Part shown: piece after piece, positions 977-9,544 of the stretch | Layout: each line of letters starts with the position of its first letter | How positions within the stretch are numbered: the stretch's first letter is position 1 | Source of the DNA: a bacterium | Lineage (GTDB): Bacteria; JAJRZV01 | Direction: 5' to 3' | Assembly: GCA_024275095.1 (NCBI GenBank) | Contig: JAJRZV010000035.1 | Span: 1 to 9,610 of the forward strand | DNA: 9,610 nucleotides | Position numbers and translations under genes: made by a program | The notes under the pieces: model-generated | Seen by the model: only the letters and a program-made list of their open reading frames with translations | The model's database searches: none | What the model was told of the DNA's origin: nothing

Positions 977-1456
977 TCAGACTTTCAGCTCAAAATAGAG
1001 AATGTCACCGAGTTCACCGGATCTTTCAGCCGGAGGCTTCAGCACGGCTTTCACTTCGGCGCCCGTTAAAGATTCTTTTGAAAAATCCTTCGCAACGATT
1101 TTGTGAATTATGCCTCCGTCGGTATTGTAGATATTGATAAACCCAATGAGCTCGGGTTTCTCTAACAGCGAACCGCGACTGTCGCGGGTTACTTCTGTCC
1201 AGGTAACCACCCTTCCCTCTGGTTGCACTTCTACGAATTCCTCCACGTCTTCCATGCATACCTCACAGTAAATACGAGGTGGCAAATATACCTTTCCACA
1301 TTGTCTGCACCTTACTGCCACAAAAACACCTTTCTCTTTCAAAGCCGTGAAAAACTTCTCTCCTGCAGGACCTACAGTGTAGGAGAAGTAAATGGGAATG
1401 TCCCCTTCCCATGCATGTGCCTTCTTGTTTACATGGACTTTACGCCAGATGCTCAT
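977..1456 (-). CDS. Zn-ribbon/OB-fold (DUF35) acyl-CoA-binding partner protein B
   Basis: The protein has 159 residues. An N-terminal helical part is followed by a rubredoxin-like zinc ribbon with Cys50-x2-Cys53 and Cys64-x2-Cys67 (VRCRQCGK ... YCEVCMED), then an OB-fold from about residue 78 to the end. The C-terminus keeps the family signature GDILYFEL. Such proteins (COG1545) do not act alone; they form complexes with thiolase-like or HMG-CoA-synthase-like enzymes and help bind or channel acyl-CoA. The frame is open further upstream, to an ATG at 1499-1501, but that start would run into the preceding gene. I chose the ATG at 1454-1456 because GGAGGAG lies just ahead and it sits 1 base after the upstream stop. 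It is the last gene of a four-gene operon. Compared with its paralogue it has a shorter N-terminus and a different OB-fold sequence, so the two are unlikely to be redundant. Confidence 0.88.
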   Translation of the reverse strand: MSIWRKVHVNKKAHAWEGDIPIYFSYTVGPAGEKFFTALKEKGVFVAVRCRQCGKVYLPPRIYCEVCMEDVEEFVEVQPEGRVVTWTEVTRDSRGSLLEKPELIGFINIYNTDGGIIHKIVAKDFSKESLTGAEVKAVLKPPAERSGELGDILYFELKV

Positions 1457-1457
1457 T

Positions 1458-1961
1458 TCACTCCTCCAGTGGTTTGAAATAAAGAATATCGGTGATGGCA
1501 CCGGTTCTTTCCTTTTCGGGTTTCCATACCGCTTTGACCTTCATTCCAATCTTTACATTCTTTGGATCATCCACTTCACCAAGTTTGTGAAGTATTCCCA
1601 CTCCAGGGGAAGCCCCGTCTATCTCAATGACAGCAGGAATTTCTGGCTCTTCGAGACGTTTTACGTCCATGGATACGTAGGAAATACTGAACGTGTTCAC
1701 TGTGCCTGTATCTTTGAGTTCCAACCATTCATCTATGGGGACAAAACAAAGTTCGCAAAAAGCTCTCGGTGGGACCAGAATACGCCTGCAACGCCTGCAC
1801 CTGACTCCCAGGATCTTCCCCTGTTTGAGCCCTTCCAGAAATTTACCTACAGCATATCCCGCATCCCATGCGTATCTGGCTTCAGGGTGATATTCAACTT
1901 TGAGGGCCTTTTCGAATTCGTCTCTTTTTAAATCCCTGCCTCTGATGACCTTCGGTTCCAT
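1458..1961 (-). CDS. Zn-ribbon/OB-fold (DUF35) acyl-CoA-binding partner protein A
   Basis: The protein has 167 residues. A helical N-terminal segment of about 45 residues contains the pattern AGYAVGKFLEGLKQGK, typical of the helix that packs on the thiolase partner. A zinc ribbon follows with Cys55-x2-Cys58 and Cys69-x2-Cys72 (VRCRRCRR ... FCELCF), then an OB-fold from about residue 80. The C-terminus GAITDILYFKP matches the family. All four metal ligands are present, so the zinc site should be intact. Known relatives are BbsA (benzoylsuccinyl-CoA thiolase), the DUF35 part of ChsH2 (with Ltp2) and PhlB (with PhlA and PhlC), all partners of thiolase-fold enzymes. The ATG start follows GAGGAGGAG at 1965-1973, 12 bases after the stop of the thiolase-like gene. 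It probably pairs with one of the two thiolase-like proteins encoded just upstream. Confidence 0.9.
   Translation of the reverse strand: MEPKVIRGRDLKRDEFEKALKVEYHPEARYAWDAGYAVGKFLEGLKQGKILGVRCRRCRRILVPPRAFCELCFVPIDEWLELKDTGTVNTFSISYVSMDVKRLEEPEIPAVIEIDGASPGVGILHKLGEVDDPKNVKIGMKVKAVWKPEKERTGAITDILYFKPLEE
1461..1467 (-). promoter_or_regulatory. Ribosome binding site that fixes the start of the last OB-fold gene
   Basis: On the minus strand GGAGGAG lies 4 bases before ATG 1456 and inside the last codons of the upstream gene. It favours the start at 1456 over the ATG at 1501 and implies translational coupling of the two OB-fold genes. Confidence 0.8.
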
Positions 1962-1973
1962 GGTCTCCTCCTC

Positions 1974-3149
1974 TTAATTGACACTGAGAATAACGACAGT
2001 ACCCACCTGCATGAGGTCTCCCCATGCCTGGGCAAGCCCTGTTTTGGGATTATTCTTGACCTGACGTTTCCCAGCTTCACCACGGAGTTGCCAGAAAATT
2101 TCACATACCTTCATCAATCCAGCAGCAGCAATAGGATTCCCAACGCCCAGGAGACCACCTGATGGACATGAAGGCAGTTCCCCATCACGATCGAATACAC
2201 CTTTTTTCAAAAGTTCAGGGGCTTTCCCCCTGTCTGCGAGCAAAAGACCTTCAAGATGATGAAGTTCCTTGTACGCAAAGGGGTCGTATGGTTCAACCAC
2301 GTGAATTTCTTTTCTCGGGTTGGTGATTCCGGCCATTTCGTATGCCATCCGAGCAGCCTTTTCAACGTAGTCAGGGTAATAGAGGTCCCGGTTGGTCCAG
2401 AAGGCAGTATCAAGATTCCAGCCCACACCCTTAATCCATACAGGCTGTTCGGATACCCTTCGGGCGATATCGTCCCTGGCGATTACTATAGCTGCAGCAG
2501 CATCTGATGTAGGCGAAACCATCAGGCGGTGTACGGGCCAGGCCATGATTTCTGATTCAAGCACTTCTTTGACGGTTACTTCCGCGCCCACCTGAGTACA
2601 CGGATGATCAAGGCCGTTTCGCTTGTTTTTTACGCTGACAAGAGCAATGTCTTCAAGTGGTATTTTGTGTACGCTCATGTACCGGTTCATCTCAAGGGCG
2701 AAAATCCACAAAAGGTTAACGCCGAGGGGACGTTCCAGAGTATGGTCATAAATAGAGTTAAACGCAGCCTGTGGATGTGGCTGAGCGCTCGACATTTTCT
2801 CTTCTGCAACGACCAGACACGTTTTGAACATTCCCGAGGCTACCATATACCATCCGTGAATGATGGCAAAAACACCGGAACCACCACCCACGTAAGAGCG
2901 CATGTAAGGTTTACGAAATGCTCCTGCGCCGTCGGCGAGATATTCCCCTTTCATGTGTACACCGTCAAAAGCATCCGGCGCTGTGGCCATAACCACGCAC
3001 TCTACGTCTTCGATGGTAAGACCTGAATTTTTGAGCGCTTCCTTAACTGCGTAGAAACTCAGTTCCCTTCCTGTTTCCTCGGCACGACGCATCACATTGC
3101 TCATTCCTGCGCCTACCACGGCAACCTTATGTTTAATATTCAGCCCCAT
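1974..3149 (-). CDS. Thiolase-like protein B (SCP2/Ltp2-type) lacking classical catalytic residues
   Basis: The 391-residue protein has the full two-domain thiolase fold: an N-terminal VAVVGAG strand, the LVVAEEKMS segment near residues 112-120, and a C-terminal GG-rich loop at 331-344. Where classical thiolases have the nucleophile in C-A-S-G, this one reads YVGGGSG (residues 86-92), so the Cys position is Gly89. The catalytic His of the G-H-P loop is replaced by Asn338 (GVGNPIAAAG). The YxGGG pattern resembles, from memory, the steroid retro-aldolase Ltp2, which also lacks the Cys. A segment at 286-300 (EPYDPFAYKELHHLE) holds Tyr and His residues that could serve as an alternative active site. 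The start has GGAGGGAG at 3154-3161, 12 bases after the upstream stop. It probably acts on an acyl-CoA together with the OB-fold proteins. Fold assignment is firm; reaction and substrate are unknown, and a plain acetyl-CoA acetyltransferase label would be misleading. Confidence 0.87.
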   Translation of the reverse strand: MGLNIKHKVAVVGAGMSNVMRRAEETGRELSFYAVKEALKNSGLTIEDVECVVMATAPDAFDGVHMKGEYLADGAGAFRKPYMRSYVGGGSGVFAIIHGWYMVASGMFKTCLVVAEEKMSSAQPHPQAAFNSIYDHTLERPLGVNLLWIFALEMNRYMSVHKIPLEDIALVSVKNKRNGLDHPCTQVGAEVTVKEVLESEIMAWPVHRLMVSPTSDAAAAIVIARDDIARRVSEQPVWIKGVGWNLDTAFWTNRDLYYPDYVEKAARMAYEMAGITNPRKEIHVVEPYDPFAYKELHHLEGLLLADRGKAPELLKKGVFDRDGELPSCPSGGLLGVGNPIAAAGLMKVCEIFWQLRGEAGKRQVKNNPKTGLAQAWGDLMQVGTVVILSVN

Positions 3150-3161
3150 GATTCTCCCTCC

Positions 3162-4313
3162 TTAATCCCGTGAAAGAATGCAGGTAGCGCCACTCCGCGT
3201 GGGGAGACCGCGCCACGACTGAATAATACACCTGTAAGGATCCGAAAGTTGCATACGCCCTGCCCTGCCCAGCAACTGATCCGCTGCAAAAGCCAGCTGA
3301 TACAAAGCCGTTGCTTCCTCCATCATACCAATACCCATGTGAGCGCCGGAGAGATTCACCGGCAGGGTACCTTCCTTGGAAAAGAAACCGTCCCGAAGCA
3401 GTTGTGCAGGATTGCGCCCATCAGTTAACGCGCACGCTTCAATGTGTTGAAGCATTTTATATGCATAACGTGAATCTACTTCTGCGAAAGAGATTTCCTT
3501 AGATGGACATGATATACCGGCCATTTCATATGCTTTCCTGGCAGAAAGTTCAGCATAGGTGGCCCTTTCCCACACCCAGGTATCAAAAGAGGGTTCAGAT
3601 GTGTAAAAACCCATCCCTTCTATCCATACAGCCTGGTTCTTTTTTTGCGACCGGATGACATCTTCACTGGCAAGAACCACAACGACCGCTCCATCCGCCG
3701 GCTGAGCCACCATCCCTTCGGTAAGGGGTTCCGCCACGACCTCCGTGAGCAATACGTCATCCGGAGAAAATTTGCCAGGGTATGCAGCAAGAGGATTCCA
3801 GATCGCATTGGTTCGCTGATGTGTAGCTGCCCGGGCTACACTTTCCGCGTCAATACCGGAAGCCTCCATGTATGCTCTCATCTCCAACCCTGCGAGAAAT
3901 CTCGGATCCACTCCTGTGTGTCGCAGGTAAACCGGATCAAGGGCCAGCTCCAGAATTTTTAGATGATTGAGTACATTGGAGGCTTTACTATGAGCTTCAA
4001 CCACACCAATGCGGAACATGCCGGTCATAATCTGCATGGCAACAGAAATTACTCCATAAAGCCCGTCTCCTGATATGGTGTGTACAGGCTTGAGCACCGC
4101 CCCCAGCTGATCCGGTACATACTCATCGAAAATGCTCACTCCTTCGTTGAAGTCCTCGGATACAGACACAAAGGTGTCCACATCAAAGGGCTCTATACCC
4201 GCATCTTCGTATGCCTTAACAGCTGCTTCAAAGATAAGTTCTCTGTAGGAAACATCGCTGCTGAGGGCTCTCGCAGGTACGATTCCGATTCCAAGAATGC
4301 CGACCTTGCTCAT
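3162..4313 (-). CDS. Thiolase-like protein A, degenerate active site
   Basis: The 383-residue protein is the first gene of the operon and a distant paralogue of the next one. Shared landmarks are VGILGIGIVP at the N-terminus, the MTGMFRIGVVEAHSKAS segment, AYEMAGI near residue 261, and a C-terminal ILS strand. The nucleophile loop reads HTISGDG (residues 78-84), with Ser81 at the usual Cys position. The G-H-P loop reads MGIGMMEEAT (326-335), with no His. Both classical catalytic residues are therefore absent. This is consistent with the second, possibly structural, subunit of a heteromeric thiolase-fold enzyme, as in complexes combining a catalytic and a non-catalytic thiolase chain with an OB-fold protein. 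The ATG follows AGGAGGG at 4317-4323, and a promoter lies upstream. Several residues (Tyr283, Tyr285, His290) could still form an unusual active site, so inactivity is an inference. Confidence 0.85.
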   Translation of the reverse strand: MSKVGILGIGIVPARALSSDVSYRELIFEAAVKAYEDAGIEPFDVDTFVSVSEDFNEGVSIFDEYVPDQLGAVLKPVHTISGDGLYGVISVAMQIMTGMFRIGVVEAHSKASNVLNHLKILELALDPVYLRHTGVDPRFLAGLEMRAYMEASGIDAESVARAATHQRTNAIWNPLAAYPGKFSPDDVLLTEVVAEPLTEGMVAQPADGAVVVVLASEDVIRSQKKNQAVWIEGMGFYTSEPSFDTWVWERATYAELSARKAYEMAGISCPSKEISFAEVDSRYAYKMLQHIEACALTDGRNPAQLLRDGFFSKEGTLPVNLSGAHMGIGMMEEATALYQLAFAADQLLGRAGRMQLSDPYRCIIQSWRGLPTRSGATCILSRD

Positions 4314-7112: not shown

Positions 7113-8063
7113 ATGGATTTTAAGATAAAAATTTATCATGGATATTTTCGGTTCTGTATCGGAGTTGTTTTATTTCTAATCTGCGGTTTAATTCCTTCCT
7201 GTAAAAGTGATCGTGGTGTCTCATGTCAAGACAGAACTACCCGGCGTTTGCAAGGTTTGAGCCTTAACCGTTCAGAAACGAAAACTTCGAACAAATGTGA
7301 TCGTCGTTTCCACATAATAAATTTGAGTTTACCGAGAACGGGTTCCACCTCTCTCGCCGCCATGTTCCAGAATTACCGCTCCAAACACGAATTTATGCAG
7401 AGGGAACTCGTTAACACGATTTCCTATTATTTTAACGGGAAAATCAGTGAGAACGAACTCGACGCATTTCTGATACTACGCGACAAAAAAGGCTCTCTCG
7501 AGGTTGACGCAAGTACCTCACTGCAGTTTGTGGCAGAACGGGTTGTGTCTCTTTTCCCGGATGCCAAATTCATATTTATCGTTAGAGACGGAGCTTCCTG
7601 GATTTTGTCTTCCCTGGCGATGTTGAGATGGCTTGGCAGAACCGGGAAAGAGGAGGATCCCGCCTACGTTGATTGGATTGAAAGATATGGGAAACTGTTT
7701 ATTTCGTCTTTCAAGTTCCCTCTTTTCGCAACTGATGTTTACCTCAGGAATCATTCGAAGCACATAATCTCCGGGCTCGCCGATTTCTGGGGAAAACAAA
7801 CATTGAATGTTCTCGAATTGTTGAGAGGGTTGCCTGAGGACAGAAGGCTCGTACTCCAATTGAAAGACTTGGATTATTCCATTCAGCGTTTGGCTCAATT
7901 TGCCGGTGTAGATCCCGGAACCCTGGTGAAAGCACATCTGAACAGAGCCAGGACTCATGACAAGGAACAGATTAAAAGGCTTGTAGGAGGAAAGAAGGTG
8001 CTGGAAGCGGCTGCGAAGGATTACCAGAGAAAGATCAACATGGTTCTGAAAGAATTCGAGTAA
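7113..8063 (+). CDS. Sulfotransferase family protein with lipoprotein-like N-terminus
   Basis: The 316-residue protein has the two PAPS-binding signatures of sulfotransferases. The 5'-phosphosulfate loop is LSLPRTGSTSLAAMF (about 71-85), and the 3'-phosphate motif is FIFIVRDGASWILSS (about 153-167), with Arg158 and Ser166/167 as likely ligands. Such enzymes move sulfate from PAPS to hydroxyl or amino groups of sugars, lipids or small molecules. Unusually, residues 11-25 form a hydrophobic segment followed by LIPSC, so Cys30 could be a lipidation site, and a polar linker (30-65) leads to the catalytic domain. No alternative in-frame ATG lies between the signal and the catalytic loop. The ATG at 7113 is the first start after an in-frame stop at 7092-7094, but it lacks a nearby Shine-Dalgarno sequence; AAGGAAAG at 7083-7090 is about 22 bases away. 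It is the first gene of an operon with two CHR transporters. The domain is secure; acceptor substrate and topology are not. Confidence 0.82.
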   Translation: MDFKIKIYHGYFRFCIGVVLFLICGLIPSCKSDRGVSCQDRTTRRLQGLSLNRSETKTSNKCDRRFHIINLSLPRTGSTSLAAMFQNYRSKHEFMQRELVNTISYYFNGKISENELDAFLILRDKKGSLEVDASTSLQFVAERVVSLFPDAKFIFIVRDGASWILSSLAMLRWLGRTGKEEDPAYVDWIERYGKLFISSFKFPLFATDVYLRNHSKHIISGLADFWGKQTLNVLELLRGLPEDRRLVLQLKDLDYSIQRLAQFAGVDPGTLVKAHLNRARTHDKEQIKRLVGGKKVLEAAAKDYQRKINMVLKEFE

Positions 8064-8069
8064 ATTTTT

Positions 8070-8666
8070 ATGAATAAGCATACTTTATCTCGCGGGAATT
8101 TACGCCTATTGGAATTGTTTGATATTTTTCTTGTTTTTCTAAAGATAGGCGTTATGAGTTTCGGTTCTGGAACAAGCGAAGTGATGTTTGAAATGATTGT
8201 CGAAAAACAGAAATGGCTCTCCATCGACGAGTTTCAGGATCAGATGGCAATAGCCGGAATGTTACCAGGCCCGTTCCATATCAATCTTGCCATAGCCTGC
8301 GGATATAAATATGCAGGTTTTCATGGTTCCATTGTGGGTGCCCTGGGGTTTGTACTTCCTGGCTTTCTGTTTGCTGTCTTGTTGGCATTGAGCATTCGGA
8401 GTGATTTCGTCGTGAACTTTCTGTCAACTCACCTCAACATCATTTCTGGAATACTCCTGGCTGTTGCCGGATTGCTTCTCAGTATAATATTAAAATTGGG
8501 CAGGCAGGTGGTGGGGAATCTGTACCTGTGGGCATTTGTTATTTTGCTCTCGCTTATGATTGTTTTATTTAAGGTTTCTCTTGTGCTCGTCCTTCTTCTA
8601 TCCGGGGTGACCGTCATGGTCGTATCAGGCATGGGTGACAATAAAAAAGGACATAACAAATGTTGA
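8070..8666 (+). CDS. CHR (chromate transporter) family protein, half-size, first of pair
   Basis: The 198-residue membrane protein corresponds to one CHR domain (PF02417). It contains the FGSGTSEV loop (31-38) after the first helix, then KWLSIDEFQDQMAIAGMLPGP (about 48-68) with the family PGP signature, GYKYAGFHGSIVGALGFVLPGF (about 78-99), and further hydrophobic helices to about residue 186. Long ChrA proteins contain two such domains fused; here they are encoded by two overlapping genes, as in other short-chain CHR pairs. Characterised members export chromate or related oxyanions, but many homologues have untested substrates. The start is 6 bases after the sulfotransferase stop and has no Shine-Dalgarno sequence of its own, so translation may be coupled. 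The tail GDNKKGHNKC is short and polar. Confidence 0.87.
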   Translation: MNKHTLSRGNLRLLELFDIFLVFLKIGVMSFGSGTSEVMFEMIVEKQKWLSIDEFQDQMAIAGMLPGPFHINLAIACGYKYAGFHGSIVGALGFVLPGFLFAVLLALSIRSDFVVNFLSTHLNIISGILLAVAGLLLSIILKLGRQVVGNLYLWAFVILLSLMIVLFKVSLVLVLLLSGVTVMVVSGMGDNKKGHNKC

Positions 8667-9226
8667 CAAGGTCATTGTTGTTATACCTGAGTATTCTTCA
8701 ATTATCTTTTTTGAGCTTCGGTGGAATTTACCCCCTATGGGCGTTCATCGAGGATGAGATGGTTGTTGAATGCCATCAAGCCGGGGCAAAACCTGCGGAA
8801 AGGGATAAAATATGCCGGCAGGATTTCAACACAATATTTACCCTGTCATATCTTGTTCCTGGTCCAAGACTCAACGGAGCATCTATTGTGGGATACGAAA
8901 TTCAGGGTTTTACCGGAATGGTTTTGTTCATTTTGGCAGGGATGACTCCCGGATTGGTTTTAATACCCATCTTGATGAATTTATATGTGAAATATCAGGG
9001 TAATCCCTGGGTGAAAAATTTTTTCAGGGGGACAAAATTTGGTATAATCCTTGTTCTTACTGGATTTTTAGCAAACATTCTTGTTGCATTTATACACGGT
9101 GCTTTTGTGAAACAGGTGATGGCAGCAGGTATTTTTGCCCTTACATTCTCTATGTCATATTTTTTCAGGATCAATCCCCTGATTATAGTTATGGTGGGGG
9201 CGGCATGGGGATACATATTTCTATAA
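8660..9226 (+). CDS. CHR (chromate transporter) family protein, half-size, second of pair
   Basis: The 188-residue membrane protein has a CHR domain: LSFGGIYPLWAFIEDEMV (about 18-35), the PGP motif at 67-69 (LVPGPRLNGASIVGYE), then GFTGMVLFILAGMTPG and several hydrophobic helices. It should form a heteromer with the upstream half. The ATG overlaps the end of the first gene by 7 bases and has AAGGA at 8647-8651 with an 8-base spacer, so translation is coupled. Between the FGG loop and PGP this copy is about 12 residues longer than its partner. The extra loop carries Cys38-His39 and Cys52, which the partner lacks. Substrate is unknown; chromate, sulfate or another oxyanion are all possible. No clear terminator follows. 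Confidence 0.87.
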   Translation: MLTRSLLLYLSILQLSFLSFGGIYPLWAFIEDEMVVECHQAGAKPAERDKICRQDFNTIFTLSYLVPGPRLNGASIVGYEIQGFTGMVLFILAGMTPGLVLIPILMNLYVKYQGNPWVKNFFRGTKFGIILVLTGFLANILVAFIHGAFVKQVMAAGIFALTFSMSYFFRINPLIIVMVGAAWGYIFL

Positions 9227-9471: not shown

Positions 9472-9544
9472 GGGGCTGTAGCTCAGGTGGGAGAGCGCAG
9501 CTTTCGCACGGCTGAGGTCGGGGGTTCGAGTCCCCCCAGCTCCA
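9472..9544 (+). tRNA. tRNA-Ala (anticodon CGC)
   Basis: The 73-base gene folds into a full cloverleaf. The acceptor stem is GGGGCTG/CAGCTCC with the G3:U70 wobble pair that marks alanine tRNAs. The D stem is GCTC/GAGC. The anticodon stem is CAGCT/GGCTG with loop TTCGCAC (anticodon CGC at positions 34-36, reading GCG). The variable loop is AGGTC. The T stem is GGGGG/CCCCC with loop TTCGAGT, and the discriminator base is A73. The 3' CCA is not encoded; the sequence continues TATTTT, so CCA must be added by the nucleotidyltransferase. A TATAAT box lies just upstream. Confidence 0.96.

Follow-up and report, generated by a model that had tools for sequence, protein, structure and literature searches.

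Our analysis of contig JAJRZV010000035.1, all 9,610 bases of which make up the window studied here, points to a four-gene module encoding one heteromeric complex of two thiolase-fold proteins, T1 and T2, and two DUF35 proteins, D1 and D2, the latter composed of a zinc ribbon and an oligonucleotide/oligosaccharide-binding (OB) fold (Table 1). The contig belongs to a 2.45 Mb draft bacterial genome, the only one of its phylum in the genome collection, and therefore no close relatives from the same phylum were found for comparison. In the reading that we favor, and to which we give about an even chance, T2 is the catalytic subunit and catalyzes an aldol reaction, forward or reverse, with a short β-hydroxyacyl-coenzyme A (CoA). 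Individual parts of this reading are not equally firm. The fold, gene order, fusions, invariant residues, match to the aldolase base and gene neighbors are computed findings, from which we deduce assembly in vivo, aldol chemistry, the roles of Asn338 and T1, and the substrate. It is very probable that the four genes encode a single complex, and only slightly less so that T2 is catalytic and T1 is not. A short substrate connected with a mutase is somewhat favored, aldol-type chemistry, proposed by analogy with known enzymes, could equally well prove right or wrong, and any substrate singled out by name would most probably be the wrong one.

All four open reading frames were found where the original prediction, made from the window sequence alone, had placed them, with intergenic gaps of 12, 12 and 1 bases in the order T1-T2-D1-D2. 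The operon had also been credited with a promoter of its own; a scan returned two promoter-like sites compared with 4.1 expected from shuffled sequences, which leaves this claim without support. Pfam models detected Thiolase_C_1 in both T1 (5e-16) and T2, Thiolase_N in T2, zf-ChsH2 in both D1 and D2, and OB_ChsH2_C in D1, with D2 passing zf-ChsH2 only. As had been anticipated, all four zinc Cys residues are present in the sequences of both DUF35 proteins. T2 exceeds the cut-off of NCBIfam NF004721 (PRK06065; 647.4 bits, cut-off 455), and the best NCBIfam match of T1, NF004722 (PRK06066), falls below its own (389.4 bits, cut-off 516); both families are labeled merely 'thiolase domain-containing protein', with no function assigned. 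In phmmer searches D1 matched 3irb, 6esq_E, 9myr_B and 9skh_E. The first of these, presumably the Sulfolobus solfataricus protein SSO2064 (PMC2954200), is also the best PDB match of D2 (1.8e-19). The AlphaFold2 models of T1 and T2 (predicted local distance difference test scores of 91.7 and 88.3, respectively) are both closest to 6esq_A, with Z 53.6 and root-mean-square deviation 1.8 over 379 aligned residues for T1, and Z 55.7 and 2.0 over 380 for T2. All structure matches down to rank 27 are either DUF35-associated or SCP2-type (Z 43–56), followed by classical thiolases at about 38–40. Both models thus have the thiolase fold (Z 38–56 against thiolases, with most of each chain aligned), although a fold in common with thiolases shows no function.

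Neither protein retains the catalytic residues of thiolases. In alignments to PDB chain 7yvy and solved thiolases, T2 Gly89 and T1 Ser81 sit at the position of the nucleophilic Cys, and T2 Asn338 and T1 Met330 occupy that of the His in the Gly-His-Pro (GHP) motif, precisely the substitutions noted in the original prediction. In the T2 model, helix 88–104 starts at the Gly89 site. At the third catalytic site, HDCF in SCP2-type thiolases, T2 has Tyr288-Asp-Pro-Phe (YDPF) and T1 has Asp280-Ser-Arg-Tyr. To follow these sites across relatives, we drew on a one-genome-per-species scan, which returned 416 relatives of T2, and analyzed 83 loci, namely 80 named ones (the best of the 416) together with G130, G180 and G315; cluster c21, which looks like a spurious reading frame, was excluded. 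Residues Gly89, Tyr288, Asp289, Pro290 and Asn338 are unchanged in all 84 T2 sequences, and not one of these has Cys at the nucleophile position. As many as 168 of 391 positions, surrounding all three catalytic sites, are at least 95% identical among the 84, a figure inflated overall, but not specifically at the three sites, by a sample that favors close relatives (the best 80 of 416, retrieved with conserved T2 peptides). By contrast, the corresponding columns of 78 T1 orthologues vary freely: S/A/T/P/C/G at the Cys site (Cys in just five), D/N/S/H/C at the third site and H/Y/N/W/D/L at the GHP His (His in 29, Met in the window protein). As a control on the alignment, we included classical thiolases that 12 archaeal loci encode next to the module; their Cys, HDCF and GHP fell in these very columns. 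Judging from its sequence, T2 cannot form the covalent acyl-Cys intermediate of thiolases, and membership of the module proteins in classical thiolases, BbsB or PhlC was rejected on catalytic residues.

The four genes travel together. Their order is kept in 64 of the 66 loci (out of 83) that have room for all of them, in numerous bacterial and archaeal phyla from Bathyarchaeota to Chloroflexota, which makes the arrangement more than chance; of the two exceptions, one is interrupted (L113) and the other has D1-D2 on the other strand (L144). Moreover, in two bacterial genomes (G180 and G315) T2, D1 and D2 form one open frame, with T1 encoded separately. We infer from these observations that the four products assemble in vivo. 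The original prediction had left room for two related enzymes instead of one. Such a pair, T1 with one DUF35 protein and T2 with the other, would account for the presence of two genes of each kind, given that BbsAB, Ltp2-ChsH2 and Sal-Shy use one each. However, in G180 and G315 both DUF35 domains are fused to T2 and none to T1, the gene order in nearly all loci is not alternating, and T1 keeps no catalytic column while T2 has an invariant, putatively Tyr-based site. Two separate enzymes are therefore quite unlikely, the least probable of the alternatives considered here, and T1 as a second enzyme was rejected on its variable columns. The single heteromeric acyl-CoA C-C bond enzyme of non-classical chemistry, the other form of that prediction, fits the gene order, the fusions, the fold and the lack of the Cys and His in T2. 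Neither of the two outcomes named in advance as refuting it, a conserved Cys and His in the catalytic columns or four genes that do not travel together, was observed. Not every DUF35 domain keeps its zinc ligands: the fused domains lack them (G180 and G315 fusions; L088 and L089), and D1 of five loci from an Armatimonadetes/ANGP1 group (L115, L116, L117, L132 and L135) has Asp in place of the fourth zinc Cys (CELDF).

What chemistry a Cys-less T2 might perform is suggested by two DUF35-bound aldolases, compared here through partial sequences of Ltp2 (6ok1), Sal (9myr), 4u4e, BbsB and 7yvy. T2 Tyr288 shares its column with Tyr294 of Ltp2 and Tyr302 of Sal (residue 326 when numbered along the chain). 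Published work assigns the role of base to Ltp2 Tyr294 and that of acid to Ltp2 Tyr344; Sal relies on Tyr302 and Cys304 for catalysis and has Gly in place of the thiolase Cys (PMC12329534). Thus, T2 may work like these aldolases, yet outside their families. In our reading, T2 would be the catalyst and T1 a homologous partner with a decayed active site, and D1 and D2 would dock on the thiolase-fold pair and help shape the acyl-CoA channel, as in Ltp2-ChsH2 and Sal-Shy. Tyr288 would most likely act as the general base, taking a proton from the β-hydroxyl of a β-hydroxyacyl-CoA or passing it back. The CoA-thioester enolate could be held by backbone NH groups of the Gly88–Gly90 turn, by Asn338 and by the AQAWGD loop, and cleavage would yield a shorter acyl-CoA together with an aldehyde or a ketone; alternatively, the enzyme would run in reverse, as an aldol addition.

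Several observations count against aldol chemistry. The second acid/base that each of the two known aldolases has is missing from T2: Pro290 aligns with Ltp2 His296 and Sal Cys304, and Asn338 with Ltp2 Tyr344 and Sal Gln352. In a FastTree phylogeny of C-terminal halves, which included partial PDB sequences, T1 and T2 form a clade of their own (support 0.96), separate from Ltp2, Sal and 4u4e, which group with thiolases (0.999), so that the module proteins belong to none of the Ltp2, Sal or thiolase families. Tyr is also present at the Tyr288 site in a third clade, made up of paired thiolase-like proteins, and hence Tyr alone may not mean an aldolase. In addition, no hydratase gene recurs beside the module in the 83 loci, and genes that do recur there may be co-regulated without belonging to one pathway. 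An alternative is a Cys-independent Claisen-type enzyme that condenses or cleaves a β-ketoacyl-CoA, or transfers acyl groups, without a covalent acyl-enzyme, Asn338 stabilizing the thioester enolate. The thiolase fold, the DUF35 partners and the presence of two thiolase-fold subunits, an arrangement known from PhlACB and MucABC, would all suit such an enzyme, as would a classical thiolase gene adjoining the module in the 12 archaeal loci and L131. The GNP of T2 at the GHP site also recalls the Asn of β-ketoacyl-acyl carrier protein synthase III. Nevertheless, T2 has no Cys in any of its relatives examined, Tyr is the sole invariant acid/base at the three aligned sites, and in archaea the adjoining classical thiolase already provides thiolysis; we consider Claisen-type chemistry improbable, if the strongest competitor to an aldolase. 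In the archaeal loci (L121, L138, L154, L163, L164, L166, L170, L171, L173, L178, L181 and L186) the classical thiolase, of SCP2 type, is encoded near the module on the other strand, mostly with its own DUF35 gene; in every locus but L178 it lies immediately upstream of T1.

Clues to the substrate come from gene neighborhoods. According to the original prediction, the window holds no acyl-CoA dehydrogenase, hydratase or ligase gene that would reveal the substrate; other genomes do provide such context, including a mutase, acyl-CoA dehydrogenase with electron-transfer flavoprotein (ETF), and CoA-transferase. The large subunit of a B12-dependent acyl-CoA mutase is encoded within about 9 kb of the module in 23 of the 83 loci, against a roughly estimated expectation of 0.014 per locus. 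The mutase small subunit (13 loci) and acyl-CoA dehydrogenase (21 loci) are found there as well, and further recurrent neighbors are MeaB, cobalamin adenosyltransferase, ETF, 3-hydroxyacyl-CoA dehydrogenase and CoA-transferase. Among 21 classifiable neighboring mutases, 20 have Phe (RxF.G), mostly together with Gln (AQK), in place of the Tyr and Arg of methylmalonyl-CoA mutase. We take the Phe/Gln pattern to be of the isobutyryl-CoA mutase type. Since most module genomes encode one Phe/Gln and one Tyr/Arg mutase, the preference for the Phe type has a built-in control, although pooling the loci by lineage weakens it (8 of 9, sign test about 0.02). A mutase is present in all 38 module genomes searched compared with 211 of 386 bacteria, a comparison uncorrected for relatedness, and in the present genome both types occur, one copy of each, on contigs other than this one. 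MeaB and cobalamin adenosyltransferase also accompany both mutase subunits in an isobutyryl-CoA mutase cluster from the literature (PMC5017805).

Taken together, the recurrent isobutyryl-CoA-mutase-type enzyme, short-chain acyl-CoA dehydrogenase/ETF and CoA-transferase suggest a substrate of three to five carbons, perhaps α-branched. The same neighborhood could also mean that the complex acts on acyl-CoA without any C-C bond change, as a hydratase, a thioesterase or a delivery partner of the mutase or acyl-CoA dehydrogenase. Genes for these two enzymes are the commonest neighbors, T1 is degenerate, and DUF35 proteins have been proposed to serve as acyl-CoA carriers (PMC2954200). T2, however, shows much more conservation than a passive scaffold would need, and we regard such a role as unlikely. 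Within the aldolase reading, a specific candidate is the interconversion of 3-hydroxyisobutyryl-CoA with propionyl-CoA and formaldehyde, either in valine and isobutyrate breakdown or in reverse. It would employ the isobutyryl-CoA-mutase-type enzyme together with the acryloyl-CoA-reductase-like acyl-CoA dehydrogenase and ETF encoded near the module, and the Tyr/Arg (methylmalonyl-type) mutase of most module genomes could take up propionyl-CoA. When 39 module genomes were compared with the 3-hydroxyisobutyryl-CoA hydrolase model PF16113, almost every match was partial and resembled crotonases, which fits this candidate. For the canonical valine route, a further possibility that we set aside, such matches say little. 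Against the candidate stand the general rarity of that hydrolase in anaerobes and the different contexts at L148, L169 and L112, and this particular reaction is a doubtful guess. In the L148 and L169 loci, aromatic amino acid ammonia-lyase-like and acyl-CoA ligase genes lie directly upstream of T1 (L169:4695-7843, L148:2181-5332), which suggests an arylacrylyl-CoA substrate in that lineage; the L112 context includes acyl-CoA carboxylase, CoA-transferase, thiolase and branched-chain aminotransferase. Several of the neighbors in these three loci were named from sequence by eye.

The best 80 of the 416 T2 relatives are 67–78% identical over the best segment and come from deep bacterial and archaeal lineages. 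By record name, these include Bacteroidetes, Armatimonadetes, Ammonifex, Zixibacteria, Chloroflexi, Planctomycetota, Acidobacteria, WOR-3, Elusimicrobia, Actinomycetota, Deltaproteobacteria and Bathyarchaeota, among others. A search of genome contigs with T1 alone confirmed no relatives. Further thiolase-like pairs accompanied by one or two DUF35 genes form a separate clade (L093, L095, L098, L101, L104 and L105, and other loci of G019, G039, G185, G257, G306, G384 and G000). In these pairs, one partner has Y-x-P-x with T/A-N-P and the other a degenerate site. Heteromeric non-classical thiolase-fold modules look common. Another locus, L194 (G000:C125), has a thiolase-like frame with one internal TGA (16-696) followed by a DUF35 gene (757-1218); the frame appears to be a decayed or misassembled copy.

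Given the number, identity and spread of T2 relatives, the complex probably serves an ancient and central function in anaerobes. The open papers that we searched contain no description of the four-gene set and no function for it. Its parts come from known superfamilies, the T2 family already has an NCBIfam number, and the set is a variant of DUF35/thiolase-fold complexes. A bolder version of our reading, which we judge improbable, is an ancient and widespread CoA-dependent aldolase complex in which one subunit has a single-Tyr site and its twin is dead. Its substrate would be a small α-branched hydroxyacyl-CoA, such as 3-hydroxyisobutyryl-CoA, made via the isobutyryl-CoA-type mutase and acyl-CoA dehydrogenase. 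If true, it would constitute an undescribed branch of branched-chain or one-carbon metabolism in anaerobic bacteria and archaea. Aldol chemistry in the module would extend DUF35-bound aldolases, known to date for their action on steroid side chains, to the metabolism of small acyl-CoAs. There is a practical side, too: databases label T2 'thiolase', and pathway reconstructions would count a β-oxidation thiolase despite the missing nucleophile.

Table 1. Genes of the four-gene module and other features of the window
Feature	Position	Strand	Remark
T1, thiolase-fold protein, 383 aa	3162..4313	minus	putative degenerate partner
T2, thiolase-fold protein, 391 aa	1974..3149	minus	presumed catalytic
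D1, DUF35 protein (zinc ribbon + OB fold), 167 aa	1458..1961	minus	zinc motif CRRC...CELC
D2, DUF35 protein, 159 aa	977..1456	minus	zinc motif CRQC...CEVC
Prepilin-like protein	183-728	minus	N-terminal methylation motif
Second prepilin-like protein	1-186	minus	N-terminal methylation motif; cut by contig end; by eye
Sulfotransferase-like protein	7113-8063	plus	just upstream of chromate transporter genes
Chromate transporter	8070-8666, 8660-9226	plus	two overlapping half-size genes
tRNA-Ala	9472-9544	plus	anticodon CGC

Overall, the module resembles several known systems without coinciding with any of them. The steroid aldolase Ltp2-ChsH2 (6ok1) shares with it the thiolase fold, a DUF35 partner and Tyr at the HDCF site, but differs at the positions of Asn338 and Pro290 and in lying outside the T1/T2 clade, and its published complex has one thiolase-fold chain type rather than two. 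The bile acid aldolase Sal-Shy (9myr), to which T1 is closest in sequence among PDB entries, has Gly in the Cys position, a catalytic Tyr and a DUF35 partner; it departs from T2 in having Cys304 where T2 has Pro290, in its separate clade and in its steroid substrate (PMC12329534). The archaeal acetoacetyl-CoA thiolase/HMG-CoA (3-hydroxy-3-methylglutaryl-CoA) synthase complex (6esq) is the top structural match of both T1 and T2 and also contains a DUF35 subunit, but has HDCF and GHA where T2 has YDPF and GNP. Similarly, benzoylsuccinyl-CoA thiolase BbsAB (7pxp; Z 52 to T2) combines a thiolase-fold subunit with a DUF35 partner, but BbsB retains HDAF and GHP. A candidate counterpart of the whole set would be SSO2061–SSO2064 of S. 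solfataricus, presumed from the 3irb link. SSO2061 is annotated as an acetyl-CoA acetyltransferase (PMC3518317). The pairing of two thiolase-fold subunits with DUF35 has a parallel in the acyltransferases PhlACB and MucABC (5m3k, 9vbo), the former described as active and inactive thiolase-superfamily subunits plus a DUF35 subunit (PMC2954200); they differ from the module in the catalytic Cys of PhlC, lacking in T2, and in having one DUF35 protein instead of two.

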